From assembly GCA_012839295.1 (NCBI GenBank), contig DUNO01000008.1, positions 186,001 to 250,000 on the forward strand: 64,000 bases of DNA. The letters run 5' to 3'. Source of the stretch: Clostridiales bacterium (GTDB lineage: Bacteria > Bacillota > Clostridia > Lachnospirales > Lachnospiraceae). A program made the translations under genes and the position numbers. The notes under the pieces were generated by a model that did no database searches, was not told the origin of the DNA, and was given only the letters and a program-made list of their open reading frames with translations. Of the stretch, positions 19,042-50,404 are shown piece by piece. The number at the start of each line of letters is the position of its first letter. Within the stretch, counting starts at the first letter, position 1.

Positions 19042-19914
19042 CTATCTCTCCTCCATTCTGTTACGGATTAAATGTATCATGATTTTGTCAATGGATGGAT
19101 TATTTATGACAAATCCTTTGGGAACATACCGTGCTTCATCACTTTTTATCAGCGCTTCAAATCCAAATTCCTTCTTTTCTATTCCAATCAGCCGGCTTCT
19201 TAGCTCCGGCGTAAGCTCTGCCTTATCCCCTTTGATAAGGATATAGGATTCCAGCAGATCATCCTTGGCCTCATTAATGATTATTTTCCCCTGGTCAATA
19301 AAGACGATATAGTCTGCTATCTGCTCAAGATCTTCCAGCATGTGGGTGGAAAAGAGTATGCTCCTCTCACCATCTGAGATATAATCCTGAAGGATTTTCA
19401 GCACCTCCGACCGTATTACCGGGTCGAGACCATTGGTGGCCTCATCTAAAATCAGAAGCTTCGTGTCCCTGGACAGCGCTACCGCAAACATCAGCTTTAC
19501 TTTCATTCCTCTGGAAAACTCCGATATCCTCCGCTTTTCCGGCAGTTGAAACCTTGAGACCATTTCATTAAAAGCGCCTTCCTGAAAGCTTTTATAAAAT
19601 GTTTTTTGGACGCTCCGGACATCTGATATCTTCATCTCCTTTGGAAAATATGATTCATCCCCGATGAATCCAATTTCTTCTTTATATCCGATTGGATTCT
19701 CTTTATATCTCCGGCCATTTACATAGACAGTACCGCCATCGGCATTGCATATCTGGTTAATGCAGTTAATTGTCGTTGTCTTTCCTGCCCCGTTCTGTCC
19801 AACGTATCCCATGATATATCCCTTGGGCAGGGAAAAGGTTACATCGTCAAGTAAAAATTCCTTATAGCGCTTGGTTAAGCCCTTTACTTCTAACAGCTCC
19901 ATATTTATGTCCAT
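19042..19914 (-). CDS. ABC transporter ATP-binding protein
   Basis: Cytoplasmic ATPase of 290 residues for the ABC-2 permease. Walker A is GQNGAGKTT, the signature EFSRGMKVKLMFA (a degenerate SRG form common in this ABC-2 class), and Walker B LLILDEATNGLD. Two starts are possible, ATG 19914 (MDINMELLEV) and ATG 19902 (MELLEV); neither has a classical Shine-Dalgarno. The start region belongs to a ~100-bp repeat also found before marR, and a 10-codon leader ORF ends just upstream, suggesting coupled translation. The open frame continues upstream to 20025, but that part is the repeat, not family-conserved protein. Confidence 0.87.
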   Translation of the reverse strand: MDINMELLEVKGLTKRYKEFLLDDVTFSLPKGYIMGYVGQNGAGKTTTINCINQICNADGGTVYVNGRRYKENPIGYKEEIGFIGDESYFPKEMKISDVRSVQKTFYKSFQEGAFNEMVSRFQLPEKRRISEFSRGMKVKLMFAVALSRDTKLLILDEATNGLDPVIRSEVLKILQDYISDGERSILFSTHMLEDLEQIADYIVFIDQGKIIINEAKDDLLESYILIKGDKAELTPELRSRLIGIEKKEFGFEALIKSDEARYVPKGFVINNPSIDKIMIHLIRNRMEER

Positions 19915-19998
19915 GCCTGTCACTGCACAAATCGCCATGAAAGTGCTGGCATGAACCCGGTCCTCCCTTCGCTTATTAGTTTTATTTCTTTCAACCTT
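19898..19998 (-). repeat. Dispersed leader repeat, copy A
   Basis: About 100 bp on the minus strand, from AAGGTTGAAAGAAATAA down to ATGGACATAAATATGGA, matching copy B at 49908-50007 with roughly 15 differences by hand alignment. It contains a GGGAGG ribosome site and a short ORF, MPALSWRFVQ (19920-19952), which ends five bases before the ABC ATPase start. A GCCA/TGGC hairpin lies at the ORF start. It looks like a mobile or conserved translational leader. Confidence 0.75.
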
Positions 19999-20030
19999 CC
20001 CGATATGCTGCGGCAGCACAAACATAATTG

Positions 20031-20120
20031 GGAAGAACGCTGCTCTCGCGTTCTTCCAGTGTGAGGTTTTAGAAATTCTTAGGTGGCGTCTTCTGACACC
20101 TTAGAATTTCTCTTCACACT
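20031..20120 (-). promoter_or_regulatory. Two stacked hairpins between gntR and the ABC ATPase gene
   Basis: Directly after the gntR stop are a hairpin of 15-bp stem with one mismatch (20071-20085 with 20097-20111, extended by AGTGTGA/TCACACT outer arms 20059-20065 and 20114-20120) and then a perfect 10-bp stem GGAAGAACGC/GCGTTCTTCC (20031-20040 with 20048-20057). No long T tract follows. They may reduce read-through, protect the mRNA, or mark a repetitive palindromic element. Confidence 0.55.
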
Positions 20121-34180: not shown

Positions 34181-35974
34181 TTATACGGTAAACCCGGCTA
34201 TTTCCTCCTGTAACTGTACCGAGCTTTCCCTTGCTACTTCAACCTGCTCCGTTACTCCTGCGGACTTATCGGTAACATCGGCAATTTTCTCCGCAATGTC
34301 CCCGGTGCCCATTGCTCCCTCCGTTGCAGCCTGGGCAACCTCATGCACGGAAACCATAATATGCTCAATGGATGCCAGGAGCTCCTCCGAGGTGGCGCTA
34401 TATTCAGTAATCAGCTCATCTACATAGGCCGCATCCTCCCTATAAGCTTCTGCCACCTCCAGCATCCTTTGCAGGCTTGAATTAATGTCAGTGGATACAA
34501 AATGAAGCAATTCACCGGCACTCTCAGACAGGTTGTCCACCGCTCCCGTTACCTGGGTGGTCACCTCCTGTATCCTTCCTACCGCTTCCTTGGATTGATC
34601 TGCCAAATGACGTATTTCATTTGCCACAACCGCAAAGCCCTTTCCGCTTTCCCCTGCCCTTGCCGCTTCAATGGATGCATTCAAGGCCAGCAGGTTCGTC
34701 TGCTCGGTAATGCCCATAATTGCTTCCGTCAGCACCCCGATCTGTTCCACAATCTTTGACTGTTCCAATGCCCGTCTCAGTCTTTCCTCTATTTCCATGC
34801 CTACCGCATTTGCCCTGTCCCTGGAATCCTTCACATCCATCTTTGTATTCTTGGCCCGCTTGCTGATTTCAACCACCTGCAGTGCGGCTTCCTGTGATTT
34901 TTTTGCAATACTCCGGCTGGCGGCCTCGATCTCACTGGAGGTAGTGGTCATAACCTCCGCTGAGGCTGCTGTTTCCTCCATGCTTGCCGCAAGCTCCTGG
35001 CTGGTAGCTGCTACATCCTCGATACTGGAATTCAGCTCCTTCATAGTCCCGTTGACCTTCTCTACAACTGTTATGATCCTGTCCGCCTCAACCTTCGCAC
35101 TGCCTACCAGCCTTGCAACGGACTCCCTCATGGTCTCAATCTCACTTCCGAGAACGCCGAAATCATCCTTTCGCTCTGTATATCCCCGAGGTAAGCTTAT
35201 CTTGAAGTTTCCCTCGGCCAAGGTATTAAAAAATTGGCTCAGAACAGCAAAATCCCGATTCAGTGTCCGCGAAAAGTAAATTGTTATTGCGACGGATAGG
35301 AGGATGGCCGCACCCAGGATAATGCCAAAGCTTGCCATGCTGGAATACAGCGCCTGATCCCCCTGGTTCTTAAGCTCCTGGATCTCCCGGTCAATATAAT
35401 CCGTATAATTGCCGGTTCCTATGATCCATTGATAAGGCTCATAGGCCAGGGTATAGCCCCGCTTTGGCAAGGGCTCCGTCTCGCCTTCCTTCGGGAACCA
35501 ATAATCCGTAAAACCTCCGTCCTCCTGGCGTCCTGCTGCTATTAAGGCCTTGATAAAGTAAAAATCGTTCAGATCCTGTTTTTCCATCCGGTTGGTTCCT
35601 TCTGTCTCGCTGCCTAACAGTACCACATTATCCCCTTCATAGGTATCAATCCAGAAATATCCGTTCTCACCATAACGGATCTCCCTGACCAGGTCCGCCG
35701 CCTGCTTCTTGGCCTCCTCCAGGGTGTATTCTCCCTTTTCCCTTTTTGCATCAATGGTGGCAATTAAGGATACCACATTCTGCACCTGGCTCTTTATATT
35801 ATTATCATAGCTGATCCGTATACTTTTCTCTTCCTCCTCCAATTTCCTCTCATTCTCCACTACCCTCTCATAGATGGAAAATACGGAGACTATGGCAGTT
35901 ACTAAGAGCAAAAATACAGATAATAATATTACCTTTGTTCTAACCTTTAGATTTTTTAGGCTGAATCTTCTCAT
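34181..35974 (-). CDS. Methyl-accepting chemotaxis protein with Cache-type sensor
   Basis: A 597-residue chemoreceptor. Membrane helix 1 is about residues 15-37; an extracellular single-Cache-type domain follows (about 40-200, EIRYGENGYFWIDTYEGDNVVLLG, the sCache_2 signature), then helix 2 (about 215-235), a HAMP-like region, and the signalling hairpin (about 390-430) with the [35 protein letters not shown] core. The ATG at 35974 has GGGAGG; the longer frame is rejected. sCache_2 receptors often sense small organic acids; the ligand here is unknown. Confidence 0.92.
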   Translation of the reverse strand: MRRFSLKNLKVRTKVILLSVFLLLVTAIVSVFSIYERVVENERKLEEEEKSIRISYDNNIKSQVQNVVSLIATIDAKREKGEYTLEEAKKQAADLVREIRYGENGYFWIDTYEGDNVVLLGSETEGTNRMEKQDLNDFYFIKALIAAGRQEDGGFTDYWFPKEGETEPLPKRGYTLAYEPYQWIIGTGNYTDYIDREIQELKNQGDQALYSSMASFGIILGAAILLSVAITIYFSRTLNRDFAVLSQFFNTLAEGNFKISLPRGYTERKDDFGVLGSEIETMRESVARLVGSAKVEADRIITVVEKVNGTMKELNSSIEDVAATSQELAASMEETAASAEVMTTTSSEIEAASRSIAKKSQEAALQVVEISKRAKNTKMDVKDSRDRANAVGMEIEERLRRALEQSKIVEQIGVLTEAIMGITEQTNLLALNASIEAARAGESGKGFAVVANEIRHLADQSKEAVGRIQEVTTQVTGAVDNLSESAGELLHFVSTDINSSLQRMLEVAEAYREDAAYVDELITEYSATSEELLASIEHIMVSVHEVAQAATEGAMGTGDIAEKIADVTDKSAGVTEQVEVARESSVQLQEEIAGFTV

Positions 35975-43242: not shown

Positions 43243-45237
43243 CTATTTTACCTTAAAACGCTCCACTTCCCCCATCATCTGATTCGTGGCCTGCTGCAGC
43301 ACGTTTGCGGCAGCGGCAACCTCTTCGACAGAGGCACTCATCTCTTCTGAGGAAGCTGAAATCTGTTCTGAGGAAGCTGAAATTTCCATGGCAGAGGAGG
43401 CAATTCCCTCGATACGTCCCATTACTTTATTCTTGTCCTCTTCAATATCCCTGGCAGAAGCTTGTATTTTTTCCATTTTAGGGATAACCTCGTCAACGGC
43501 TTCCACTATCTTTTGGAAGGAAAGCAGAGAGTGTTCGATAACGCCCACTTGATTCATCAGCTCCTGATCCATTGTAATGGAATTTTCCACCATAGCGTTA
43601 GTTCCCGCGGATATTCCAGCGACTACCTTGCTTATTTTGTCGGAGGATACTTTGGATTGCTCCGCAAGATGGCCGATTTCGTTTGCAACCACTGCAAAGC
43701 CTTTTCCTGCTTCCCCCGCTCTGGCGGCCTCAATGGAGGCGTTCAGCGCGAGCAGGTTCGTCTGGTCTGCGATGCTGTTGATCAAATCAGTAATCTCGCC
43801 AATCTGATGGATTTCCGCTCCAAGAGAAACCGTCTGCCTATGAAACTCTTTAAAGGATTCGCTTATCTTCGATATTGATTGGTTCAGCAGATCTGCCTCT
43901 TTGCTGCTGTCCGCCGCCAAATCGCCAACTTCTTTTGAATTTGCACCTACATCCTCTATCTCGCCGATAATGTCGGTTAGTTTTTCATTAAAGCGATCCA
44001 TAATACCTGTAATCATTACCAAATCCTCAGACTGCTGGTTGGTACCCCTGGCAATTTCGGTTATGGTTTCCGTTACATTTTGCGCCGCATCCGCAATCTC
44101 TTCGGTCACGGAGGATAAGTTCTCCGCCTGCTCATTGATGTCGCCGGTATTTCCGCGAATCTTTCCAATCATGCTGCCGGTGGATTCCTGCATCGTTTTC
44201 ATGGAGTTCATCATTTCCCCGATTTCATCCTTCTGCTTCAGATACCGGGAGGAAATCTCCCTGGAAAAATCTCCGGCCGCCAACAATTTTAAATGCCCCG
44301 AGGTCAACTTAATTCCCTTCGTTATGGTATTCGCCATAAAATACATGGCTACTAAGCTGAGCAAGATAAATATCACTGAAATGGACACAGCTGTTACCTT
44401 CAAGTTATCGAGAACAGACAAGGCTTCATGCTCCGTTACGGTAATACCTACGGACCAGCCTGTCTGGACAATTGGCGCATAGCCTATAAATTTGTCTTCG
44501 CCCTGATATGCAATCTTGCCCATTCCGGTCTCTCCGGCAATCATTTTCTTCTCAATTTCGGCTAACGCGGTAAGGCTTGCATCTGTTTCTGCCGCCTCAA
44601 TGTCGCTTACTTCCTGAATTACCTTCTCTGGATCCGGATTCGCGATGGAAACTCCGGCGCGGTTTATCATAAAGGTGGTGCCGTTTTCTCCTATTTGGAT
44701 GGAATTCGTAATTTCGCTCAGCGCATTTCCATCTCTCGTTTCCAGAAGGATCGCCGTCACTTTTCCATTGTTGAAAATAGGCGCTGCATAAGTCACGACA
44801 AACCGCTTGTCCGGCGTAACGAGAGGATCCGATACCACTCCTTTTCCGGTTAGTGCAGTCTGAAAATAGGCCCTATGGCTGATCTCAGCGGTGGAACCAT
44901 CCGTATTCAGCAGATTTCCGTCCAAATCCGCAATTCCCATCCGGATTGCTCCGAGCCGCTCTCCTTCACCCTCCAAAATCTTAAGCTTTTCATCCAAAGA
45001 AAGATTTAAGCTCTTGATATCGTCCCTTTCTGCAACAGTTTCCAGGGCTTTTATCTCTCCGTTGACTCTGGCGATTATATGTTCCGACGTTTGCTTTGCA
45101 ATTTCCGGCAGTATAATCTGTAGGTTCGACTCCAATGCGGACTTCGCATTGAAATAAGAAGAGACCCCGATTCCGGTACATACAATTACAATTATGACCC
45201 CAAAGAACACCATCATTTTTGTTTTTATACTTTTCAT
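43243..45237 (-). CDS. Methyl-accepting chemotaxis protein with dCache sensor
   Basis: A 664-residue chemoreceptor. Helix 1 is about residues 8-28, a double-Cache extracellular domain spans about 35-280 ([34 protein letters not shown] is typical dCache_1), then helix 2 (about 285-305), HAMP, and the signalling tip [38 protein letters not shown]. The ATG at 45237 has GGAGG six bases upstream. dCache_1 receptors often bind amino acids; the ligand cannot be told. Confidence 0.92.
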
Positions 45238-48920: not shown

Positions 48921-49448
48921 TTATATACTAACACCCTTCACATATGTTATCAGAGGTTTGATCAATGCTTTATCCGAGTGGTCATTTGACTTCATAAGGG
49001 CATTCATCATGCCGGTTTCCTCATCCGTCCTATCCTTCTTTTTTTGAAGTGATTTGCACATACCTTTCAAAAGTGTTTTCGAAAAGAATCCCATATTTTC
49101 GTAATTTATCCCGCTTTCGAAATAGTAAAAGGGGATACTTTCCTGTTCCTGCTGGGACAGATTGTTATCCCTGATGCTGTTAATGATCTTGGAGGCGTTC
49201 CTGTCCGTCGCCCCTGTTGCAAACAAAATAAGCTTCTTGCCGTAAATATGGGGATTTTTCTTCAATTTGTCAAGACCGGCGATCCTGCCAGCCGTGATAC
49301 CACCACCATAGATTATTACATCATAATCGCTGATTTTCTTTGACGCAGCTTCATGGTCTGCAAGATCGCAGGACAGTTCTTCGGCGATCCACTGGGCATA
49401 CTTTTTTGTAAATCCGGTACTGCTTTGATATACGACAATTGTTTTCAT
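48921..49448 (-). CDS. Flavodoxin-like protein
   Basis: A 175-residue flavodoxin-domain protein (protoporphyrinogen-oxidase HemG-like size). The FMN phosphate loop is VYQSSTGFTKKYA near the N-terminus; DYDVIIYGGGITAGRI and LILFATGATD follow. The start overlaps the marR stop (ATGA), so they are co-translated. It probably carries electrons for, or reduces, a neighbouring flavoenzyme. Confidence 0.85.
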   Translation of the reverse strand: MKTIVVYQSSTGFTKKYAQWIAEELSCDLADHEAASKKISDYDVIIYGGGITAGRIAGLDKLKKNPHIYGKKLILFATGATDRNASKIINSIRDNNLSQQEQESIPFYYFESGINYENMGFFSKTLLKGMCKSLQKKKDRTDEETGMMNALMKSNDHSDKALIKPLITYVKGVSI

Positions 49449-49924
49449 TTTTGGCCCTCCCGTATTGAGATAAGATTGCTCTCGATCTTAATCATTGCTT
49501 TCAAGGTGATTGCTATTTCCTCTTCTGAAAGTCCGTCAAACAGCCGTTCCATAAACTCCACTCCCTGGTTTTTATGCTTCATTTCCAGCTGCATTAATTT
49601 ATCCGTCGGAATAATTCGTACTTTTCTCTTGTCCTGCTCATCCGGAAGGAGCTTAATAAATCCGTTTCTCTCAAGCTTATTTGCAATTTGCCTTACATTC
49701 TGGTGTGAGCTGCCCATGATCCCAGACAATTCATTAATCGTAGGACAGTGGTCATGAAATAGGGACAGACAGATTGTAAGAAAAAATTGTTTGCTGGTGA
49801 TACCCTCGTAGAAGGTGTCGCCGGCTGCCTGCAATTGATTATCAAAGGCAAAAAAGAGGCCAAAGAGGATGCTTTTATCATTTAGTCCGGTTAGCATGGT
49901 ACTTCTGTCCATAATTATGTCCAT
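49445..49924 (-). CDS. MarR-family transcriptional regulator
   Basis: A 159-residue regulator with a winged helix (about 55-115: CPTINELSGIMGSSHQNVRQIANKLERNGFIKLLPDEQDKRKVRI), the MarR recognition helix and wing. Two starts are possible, ATG 49924 (MDIIMDRS) or 49912 (MDRSTML); both lie in the leader repeat shared with the ABC ATPase gene. It probably represses the flavin redox genes through the nearby palindromes. Confidence 0.88.
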   Translation of the reverse strand: MDIIMDRSTMLTGLNDKSILFGLFFAFDNQLQAAGDTFYEGITSKQFFLTICLSLFHDHCPTINELSGIMGSSHQNVRQIANKLERNGFIKLLPDEQDKRKVRIIPTDKLMQLEMKHKNQGVEFMERLFDGLSEEEIAITLKAMIKIESNLISIREGQK

Positions 49925-50007
49925 GCCGTTTACCGCATAAATGCCATGAAAGTGTTGGCATGGACCCGATCCCCCTTTCGTTTATTAATCTTATTTCTTT
50001 CAACCTT
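49908..50007 (-). repeat. Dispersed leader repeat, copy B
   Basis: Second copy of the element at 19898-19998. It starts one base into the stop codon of the FMN-binding gene and runs into the marR start codons. It holds a GGGGG ribosome-like site and a short ORF starting MPTLSWHLCG (49878-49961) that overlaps the marR start out of frame. An ATGCCA/TGGCAT hairpin (9-nt loop) sits at the ORF start. Confidence 0.75.
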
Positions 50008-50404
50008 ATTGCTCCTTTCCTTTTTCAAGCGCGATACTTACCGCACTTTTGATTACTTCGCTCGAGAGGGTGGCTCCGCTTATTGCATCAACCTCATATG
50101 TATTCTGTCTTACCATTTCCTTTGTTATAGCCTCTGCTTTAGTGCCCAGCCCATTCTCATGCTTAAGAATATCAATTCTAATAATTGTATGATTTTGCAC
50201 CGTAACCTTAACCTCAGCCTTAACCAGGCCCGCATCCGCCATGCCATGGTATACTCCATCGGCCACCTTTGAAGCCTCTAACCCGGAATAGTATAGCTTT
50301 TTCCTTTCATGGTTGGCGGATGAGACCATAAATACAATCATGATTATCAAAAGCGCCAGGATTACAGCCAGAAGCCATCCTAAGAATTTTCCTGCTCTTT
50401 TCAT
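50006..50404 (-). CDS. FMN-binding domain membrane protein (RnfG/NosR-like domain)
   Basis: A 132-residue protein: one N-terminal membrane helix (about 8-30), then an extracellular FMN-binding domain with DGVYHGMADAG and the C-terminal DAISGATLSSEVIKSAV. The SGAT motif is where FMN is covalently bonded to Thr in RnfG/NqrC-type proteins. It is likely an extracytoplasmic electron carrier. It heads the MarR-flavodoxin gene group. Confidence 0.87.
   Translation of the reverse strand: MKRAGKFLGWLLAVILALLIIMIVFMVSSANHERKKLYYSGLEASKVADGVYHGMADAGLVKAEVKVTVQNHTIIRIDILKHENGLGTKAEAITKEMVRQNTYEVDAISGATLSSEVIKSAVSIALEKGKEQ

Follow-up and report, generated by a model that had tools for sequence, protein, structure and literature searches.

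The 64,000-nt stretch of DNA analysed here (hereafter the window) carries, at the start codons of two unrelated genes, copies of a short repeat that probably represents a mobile split ribosome-binding site, that is, a member of a non-autonomous Clostridia family of about 92 nt inserted at translation starts. According to this interpretation, the element would insert seamlessly and in the sense orientation downstream of the Shine-Dalgarno (SD) sequence of a gene, in the gap that separates it from the start codon and as a rule 3 nt before the ATG, and would bring a replacement split site made up of its own SD (AAGGRGG), 5-6 nt, a 9-bp stem and an ATANNN-ATG stretch, the loop holding the rest. 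Folding would put the element SD about 11-13 nt from the host ATG, and the host gene would stay translatable, so that the element could persist before essential genes. In the cell, 30S subunits would use the folded SD. The split-site model accounts together for the position of the element, the retention of its SD and the covariation of its stem, which none of the other explanations was seen to do.

A repeat family positioned at gene starts

The original prediction had described a repeat of about 100 bp at 19898-19998 and 49908-50007, at the starts of two unrelated genes, and this proved to be real: the two copies share 85% identity over 101 nt (BLAST), and Pfam assigns the genes behind them to ABC_tran and MarR, respectively. 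Both copies (Table 1) are separated by 3 nt from the ATG of the gene that follows, at 19902-19900 (minus strand) for the ABC ATPase and at 49912-49910 (minus strand) for the MarR-family regulator. The stop codon TAA (50006-50008) of the FMN-binding gene upstream of copy 2 spans the left junction of the element, which supplies its last base. Directly upstream of copy 1, at about 20003-20116, lies another dispersed hairpin repeat, with an end such as GTGCTGCC..GGCAGCAT.CGGG, and ends resembling it precede the element at loci L018, L066, L072, L077, L079 and L083. The window also contains a 155-nt direct repeat (34590-34744 and 43652-43806; 72% identity), perhaps reflecting related genes.

Table 1. 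Element copies and associated features in the window
Feature	Position	Strand	Description	Basis
Element copy 1	19906..19997	-	92 nt, AGGTTG...GGACATA	Exact ends from the tandem junction GGACATA/AGGCTG in L062
Copy 1 internal Shine-Dalgarno-like motif	19962..19970	-	GAAGGGAGG	Region kept at start codons, decays elsewhere
Copy 1 stem, 5' arm	19948..19956	-	GTTCATGCC, 9-bp stem	Fold and covariation
Copy 1 stem, 3' arm	19909..19917	-	GGCATGGAC	Fold and covariation
ABC transporter ATPase gene	19042..19902	-	286 aa from native ATG	Pfam ABC_tran
Element copy 2	49916..50006	-	91 nt, one deletion in loop	
Copy 2 internal Shine-Dalgarno-like motif	49971..49979	-	GAAAGGGGG	Sequence
Copy 2 stem, 5' arm	49957..49965	-	GTCCATGCC	Predicted fold
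Copy 2 stem, 3' arm	49919..49927	-	GGCATGGAC	Predicted fold
Native Shine-Dalgarno remaining upstream of copy 2	50011..50018	-	AAAGGAGC	Sequence, 5' flanks
MarR-family regulator gene	49445..49912	-	155 aa from native ATG	Pfam MarR

The suggestion that the repeat is mobile and recurs at start codons was borne out, the two window copies belonging to a genome-wide family with 87 covariance-model matches (E<=0.001) in the 6.36-Mb source genome (G000). In the same genome BLAST gave at least 40 matches (40 of 95 candidates scored), and a pattern search allowing up to 3 mismatches gave 57, compared with none for a reversed control; the repeat is therefore not due to chance. Alignment and a head-to-tail array define the unit as 92 nt, AGGTTGAAAG...GGGCATGGACATA; the array (L062) consists of three copies joined at GGACATA/AGGCTG, and the same kind of junction is found in a two-copy array in another genome (L244, G074). 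Fetching of the loci gave 94 distinct copies at an HMM score of at least 20 (87 from G000 and 7 from G012, a member of the same genus), and omission of six copies without a recognisable 3' end left 82 and 6 copies, respectively. Among 70 well-ended copies from these two genomes, 36 are 91-92 nt long and 16 are 111-113 nt long, with the extra length located in the loop. Loop expansions based on a unit of about 18-20 nt (GGCAATGCCCGTAATGAT-like), some of them repeated, were seen inside or beside element copies at L066, L068 and L041 of G000.

As to other genomes, a search of the source genome and its relatives yielded many more copies, also in distant Clostridia, rather than a single pair produced by simple duplication. 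Covariance-model searches of 34 genus members gave 87 matches in the source genome, 7 in G012 and none in the other 32. When 391 Clostridia genomes, sampled evenly, were searched using Infernal with stricter filters, 12 genomes including G000 had matches, two of them (G138 and G132) near the threshold; the nine other foreign genomes together contained 130 matches, of which 49 were fetched. Ten copies in G246 are nearly identical, suggesting, on the basis of sequence, recent movement. BLAST at E<=0.01 gave no match in plasmids and phages. Four exact-pattern scans of viral contigs returned one stretch, and on viral contig IMGVR_UViG_3300011712_000014 (L250, 658-777) a copy is found where a phage structural-type gene begins, with LysM- and tail-like genes next to it (names read from translations); such a phage copy is a possible vehicle between hosts. 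The scan of genome contigs returned 16 stretches, 2 of them from Herbinix sp. MAG L_E1_T20_B_bin.8, and the other 14, having no covariance-model match at E<=1, were counted as chance; given that the exact pattern caught only 31 of 63 own copies, its misses mean little.

The element lies in the sense orientation between the SD of a gene and its start codon. In 54 of the 82 own copies, a mechanically called ORF (minimum length 60 aa, or 20 aa where the end of the locus truncates it) begins with an ATG exactly 3 nt after the element, and of the 28 that are not exact according to the parser, three (L047, L181 and L185) are exact by eye, their ends having been misplaced by the parser. A sense ORF starts within 127 nt in 80 of the 82 (mechanical ORFs; the misses are L054 and L184), and in 40 of the 49 copies fetched from other genomes the ATG at the end of the unit opens an ORF of 60 aa or more. 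Pfam supported 7 of 7 own genes submitted behind a copy, including MurG-, Clp_N-, CLP_protease- and PP-loop-type proteins, and 10 of 10 submitted from other genomes, including adenylate kinase, HisF-type, cold-shock and Tex proteins. The targets are unrelated and include housekeeping genes (murG, clpC, gatB), and no common function, for which the prediction had proposed to look, was seen among the genes behind the element in the own and other genomes.

Stem, Shine-Dalgarno retention and alternative readings

The conserved parts of the element are the SD (AAGGRGG), a gap of 5-6 nt, the 9-bp stem and a final ATANNN leading to the ATG. In 33 sequences chosen by the analyst for diversity, 93.9% of cells of the stem (GTCCATGCC/GGCATGGAC) are paired and 23 cells, distributed over 6 of the 9 pairs, carry double changes. 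None of 500 shuffles reached the observed stem pairing, double changes or covariation score; the number of further pair types was reached by 41 of 500. RNAalifold, unaided, returned the same 9 pairs, while folds of single sequences were not better than those of shuffles (z from +0.4 to -1.7). Folds of the window copies do predict a hairpin over the ATG of the short ORF, as originally proposed, and the covarying stem supports the structural role that had been suggested for the repeat. An inner GCAC/GTGC helix is 86.5% paired in own-type copies and was not found in the consensus fold of the diverse set.

If the element SD drives the host gene, it is expected to be kept at start codons and to have decayed elsewhere, and this pattern was observed. 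For this comparison, exact, near and far groups were drawn by hand after the positions had been seen; 80 of the 82 copies entered the grouping, and 5 of these (3 'other' and 2 tandem) stood outside the comparison. Exact copies (n=52) had an SD mismatch of 0.12 and far copies (n=15) one of 0.36, the corresponding left-half values being 0.24 and 0.29, and the SD octamer contained 1.7% non-purines in the exact vs 15% in the far copies (p=6e-7). Overall divergence is somewhat higher in the far copies (p=0.046), and in divergence-matched groups the SD mismatch was 0.11 for exact (n=39) vs 0.38 for far copies (n=11; p=1e-6). Loss of the SD also affects the 8 near copies, with a start 4-9 nt off (mismatch 0.264). 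The stem, in turn, is equally kept away from start codons (mismatch 0.089 vs 0.087; pairs kept, p=0.34); the split-site model does not explain this upkeep in far copies, for which detection bias is possible.

The folded distance between SD and ATG is 11-13 nt in 30 of the 42 own copies analysed and in all 9 G338 copies analysed, and 12 nt in all 9 G246 copies analysed. It is 12 nt in 6 of 9 copies of the G340 subfamily, with weaker SDs; despite the recent appearance of its copies, the internal SD of this subfamily (AATGTGG) is weak. As for the native SD left upstream of the element, the mean best match was 4.93 in G246, G338, G340 and G356 (n=29), 4.20 in the own genome (n=44) and 3.56 in G074, G108 and G149 (n=9), with controls near 3.2; no significant weakening of the native SD with element divergence was found in the own genome (rho 0.17, p=0.26). 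This missing trend, the weak SD of the G340 subfamily, the stem upkeep in far copies and the copies without an exact start speak against the split-site interpretation.

The original prediction had also proposed a peptide-dependent role for a short ORF within the repeat. The ORF itself is present, as MPALSW in copy 1 and MPTLSW in copy 2, although in the latter the 1-nt deletion breaks the frame after LSW; the peptide-dependent role was not supported. Variation is equal at codon positions 1, 2 and 3 (0.151, 0.139 and 0.149), the frame is broken or closed early in many copies, and the ATG in the stem, which opens MPALSW here, opens MQFLTL in G246, MLDISS in G338 (L213) and, by eye, a two-residue MP-stop in 8 of 10 G340 copies. 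That is, neither codon positions nor the comparison of subfamilies gave any sign of peptide selection in the short ORF, and a leader-peptide attenuator was rejected for lack of a conserved translated peptide. A related reading, which we regard as unlikely, is that of a translated leader with coupling, in which ribosomes would load on the native SD, start at a TTG of the element placed exactly where the native ATG was, reach a stop near the host ATG and re-initiate there. Indeed, 48 of 70 copies carry a TTG (8 a CTG, 3 a GTG) at a distance of 3 nt from the left junction, and in 35 of 70 the stop of the frame falls in the interval from 22 nt before to 20 nt after the host ATG. However, TTA or CTA occupies the TTG place in 11 of 70 and the stops are scattered from -588 to +106 nt relative to the ATG; the absence of codon-position bias, the unrelated peptides of the subfamilies and the retention of the internal SD at start codons also speak against such a leader.

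Three copies common to two species each keep SD and stem while their loops diverge, which favours the split-site interpretation and bears on a further reading, in which the element would be a cis-regulatory RNA (riboswitch, thermosensor or protein-binding leader) spreading through useful regulation. These copies precede gatB (G074 and G108, whose GatB proteins are 95% identical), a nuoG-like gene (G000 and G012) and minD-like genes (G149 and G318), the last of which match ParA/MinD-type ATPase families. The paired stem changes are GTTC/GAAC vs ATCC/GGAT at gatB and GTCC/GGAC vs ATCC/GGAT at nuoG, where one pair is additionally broken in G012. The ATG that follows the copies at minD and at gatB of G074 is about 3 nt further away than usual, placing these copies among the 9 of 49 that are not exact. 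A conserved structured RNA at many starts, with a loop sequence like TTTTGTGC recurring by eye in several subfamilies, could fit regulation of this kind; we nevertheless consider it improbable, as at the shared loci the loops diverge while SD and stem are kept, the genes behind the element have no evident function in common, and Rfam gave no match in the window at gathering level and chance-level matches for one copy. The least probable reading, already disfavoured, is an ordinary small interspersed repeat without a role, inserted at random and kept where harmless, which would suit a small, multicopy, lineage-specific family with decaying copies but not the sense orientation, the fixed distance to the start codon, the SD kept at start codons and not elsewhere, the housekeeping genes hit or the paired stem changes in copies common to two species.

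Empty sites and mobilisation

Comparison of 12 own genes with up to 8 relatives revealed element-free homologues for 11 of them, the nuoG-like gene being also filled in G012. The spacing is equal in filled and empty sites at the clpC, tadA, murG and U32-peptidase genes; at clpC, for example, the sequence of a relative is GGAGGACACAAATATG and that of the own locus GGAGGACACA, followed by the element and AATATG. Spacing differs by about 1 nt at the thiL-like gene and by 5 at yfcE, and the other loci were too diverged to judge, the clpP comparison being the weakest (70-71% identity, with an alignment from residue 3). Because of the equal spacing, the insertion between native SD and ATG looks seamless, and no target-site duplication was found at the four comparable loci. 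In the clpP-like locus of G012 (L158), AAGGTTAGAAGAAATA, just before the native SD, resembles the left end of the element and is perhaps a fragment.

Positions -7 to -4 of the left flank are rich in G, and A occupies position -1 in 58 of 70 copies and position +1 in 57 of 70. The target logo amounts to 8.3 bits only and selects 91 sites in the window: 15 coincide with starts and 4 fall just upstream, 10 are intergenic and 62 lie within coding sequence; two of the 91 are the junctions of the window's own elements. Such a short motif together with the loss of insertions in coding sequence would therefore put about half of the insertions at starts, and the start-codon excess above that argues for added targeting or selection; with a logo of 8.3 bits, part of the start-codon bias may be contributed by selection acting once the element has inserted. 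It is conceivable, though doubtful, that insertion is directed by the translation-initiation signal itself (SD plus start codon), recognised as a DNA motif or as 30S-bound mRNA. Equally tentatively, directed insertion would place the element one codon before the start and trade one ribosome-binding site for two. The head-to-tail junction GGACATA/AGGYTG resembles an SD-spacer-start arrangement.

Among possible sources of mobility, a MITE of a DDE transposon was rejected, as the ends AGGTTG and GGACATA are by inspection not inverted repeats and the four comparable loci show no target duplication. A derivative of IS200/IS605 (HUH Y1) elements is disfavoured: the Y1 transposase (PF01797) was detected in 6 of 8 carriers and is absent from G000 and G246, drafts in which loss or gaps are possible, and no subterminal hairpin was found at both ends, the consensus fold giving a right-hand stem only. 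Disfavoured as well is a derivative of a retro-element or group II intron, since reverse transcriptase (PF00078), present in 5 of 8 carriers, is missing from G246, G338 and G356 (G338 and G356 being 80-86% complete) and Rfam gave no intron RNA in the window (gathering level) or for one copy (E up to 10). The large serine recombinase (PF07508) occurs in 7 of 8 carriers and is absent in G012. No element copy was detected with the own-subfamily HMM in six serine-recombinase clusters; adjacent serine recombinase genes are clustered at L253, L254 and L258 (G000, G108 and G074, respectively). The only copy found in G412 (L209, element at 1501-1581) lies at the start codon of a large serine recombinase gene. 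An autonomous parent with the same left end was rejected, as the 24 own left-end matches (up to 3 mismatches) coincide by eye with full copies. A solo right-end match (G000:C2:100243) is only a 30-nt partial HMM match (E=0.022). No mobilising enzyme emerged from these comparisons.

Implications and relation to known systems

If the split-site interpretation is correct, the family would represent a class of mobile elements for which insertion before essential genes is no longer a problem, since each copy supplies a folded ribosome-binding site of its own, and the split ribosome-binding site, a phage curiosity, would turn out to occur at dozens of chromosomal genes of a single genome. The element would also create a second in-frame start (ATG GAC ATA NNN ATG), which annotation may mistake for the native one, and the filled and empty sites would form natural sets for testing the effects of structure between SD and AUG on initiation. 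Among the matches listed, the portions of the open-access literature consulted contained no description of a mobile element at SD-AUG gaps.

The closest parallel is with the split sites of bacteriophage T4 genes 25 and 38, in which a stem brings SD and AUG close together, shortening the distance from 27 nt to 11 in gene 25 and from 22 to 5 in gene 38, and in which destabilised structure lowers initiation (excerpts of PMC3014915). The gene 25-type features are present in the element, namely an SD (weak in the G340 subfamily), a stem and a folded spacing near 11 nt, mostly 11-13 nt. Unlike the T4 sites, which are single and fixed, the element is mobile and multicopy in bacterial chromosomes. As a short, non-coding, structured, multicopy and lineage-specific repeat it is similar to BOX, RUP, SPRITE and ERIC, as these are presented in excerpts of PMC3049150 and PMC2229807. 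Terminal inverted repeats and target duplications characterise BOX and RUP, and the regions between convergent genes are enriched in all three pneumococcal repeats (excerpts of PMC3049150), whereas the element has neither end feature and sits at gene starts. Finally, the bypassing inserts of Magnusiomyces mitochondria are likewise short inserts tolerated because translation copes with them, and are mobile according to a title cited there (excerpts of PMC5009743); in contrast to these inserts, which lie in reading frames and are skipped in elongation, the element is located before the start codon and would itself supply initiation signals.
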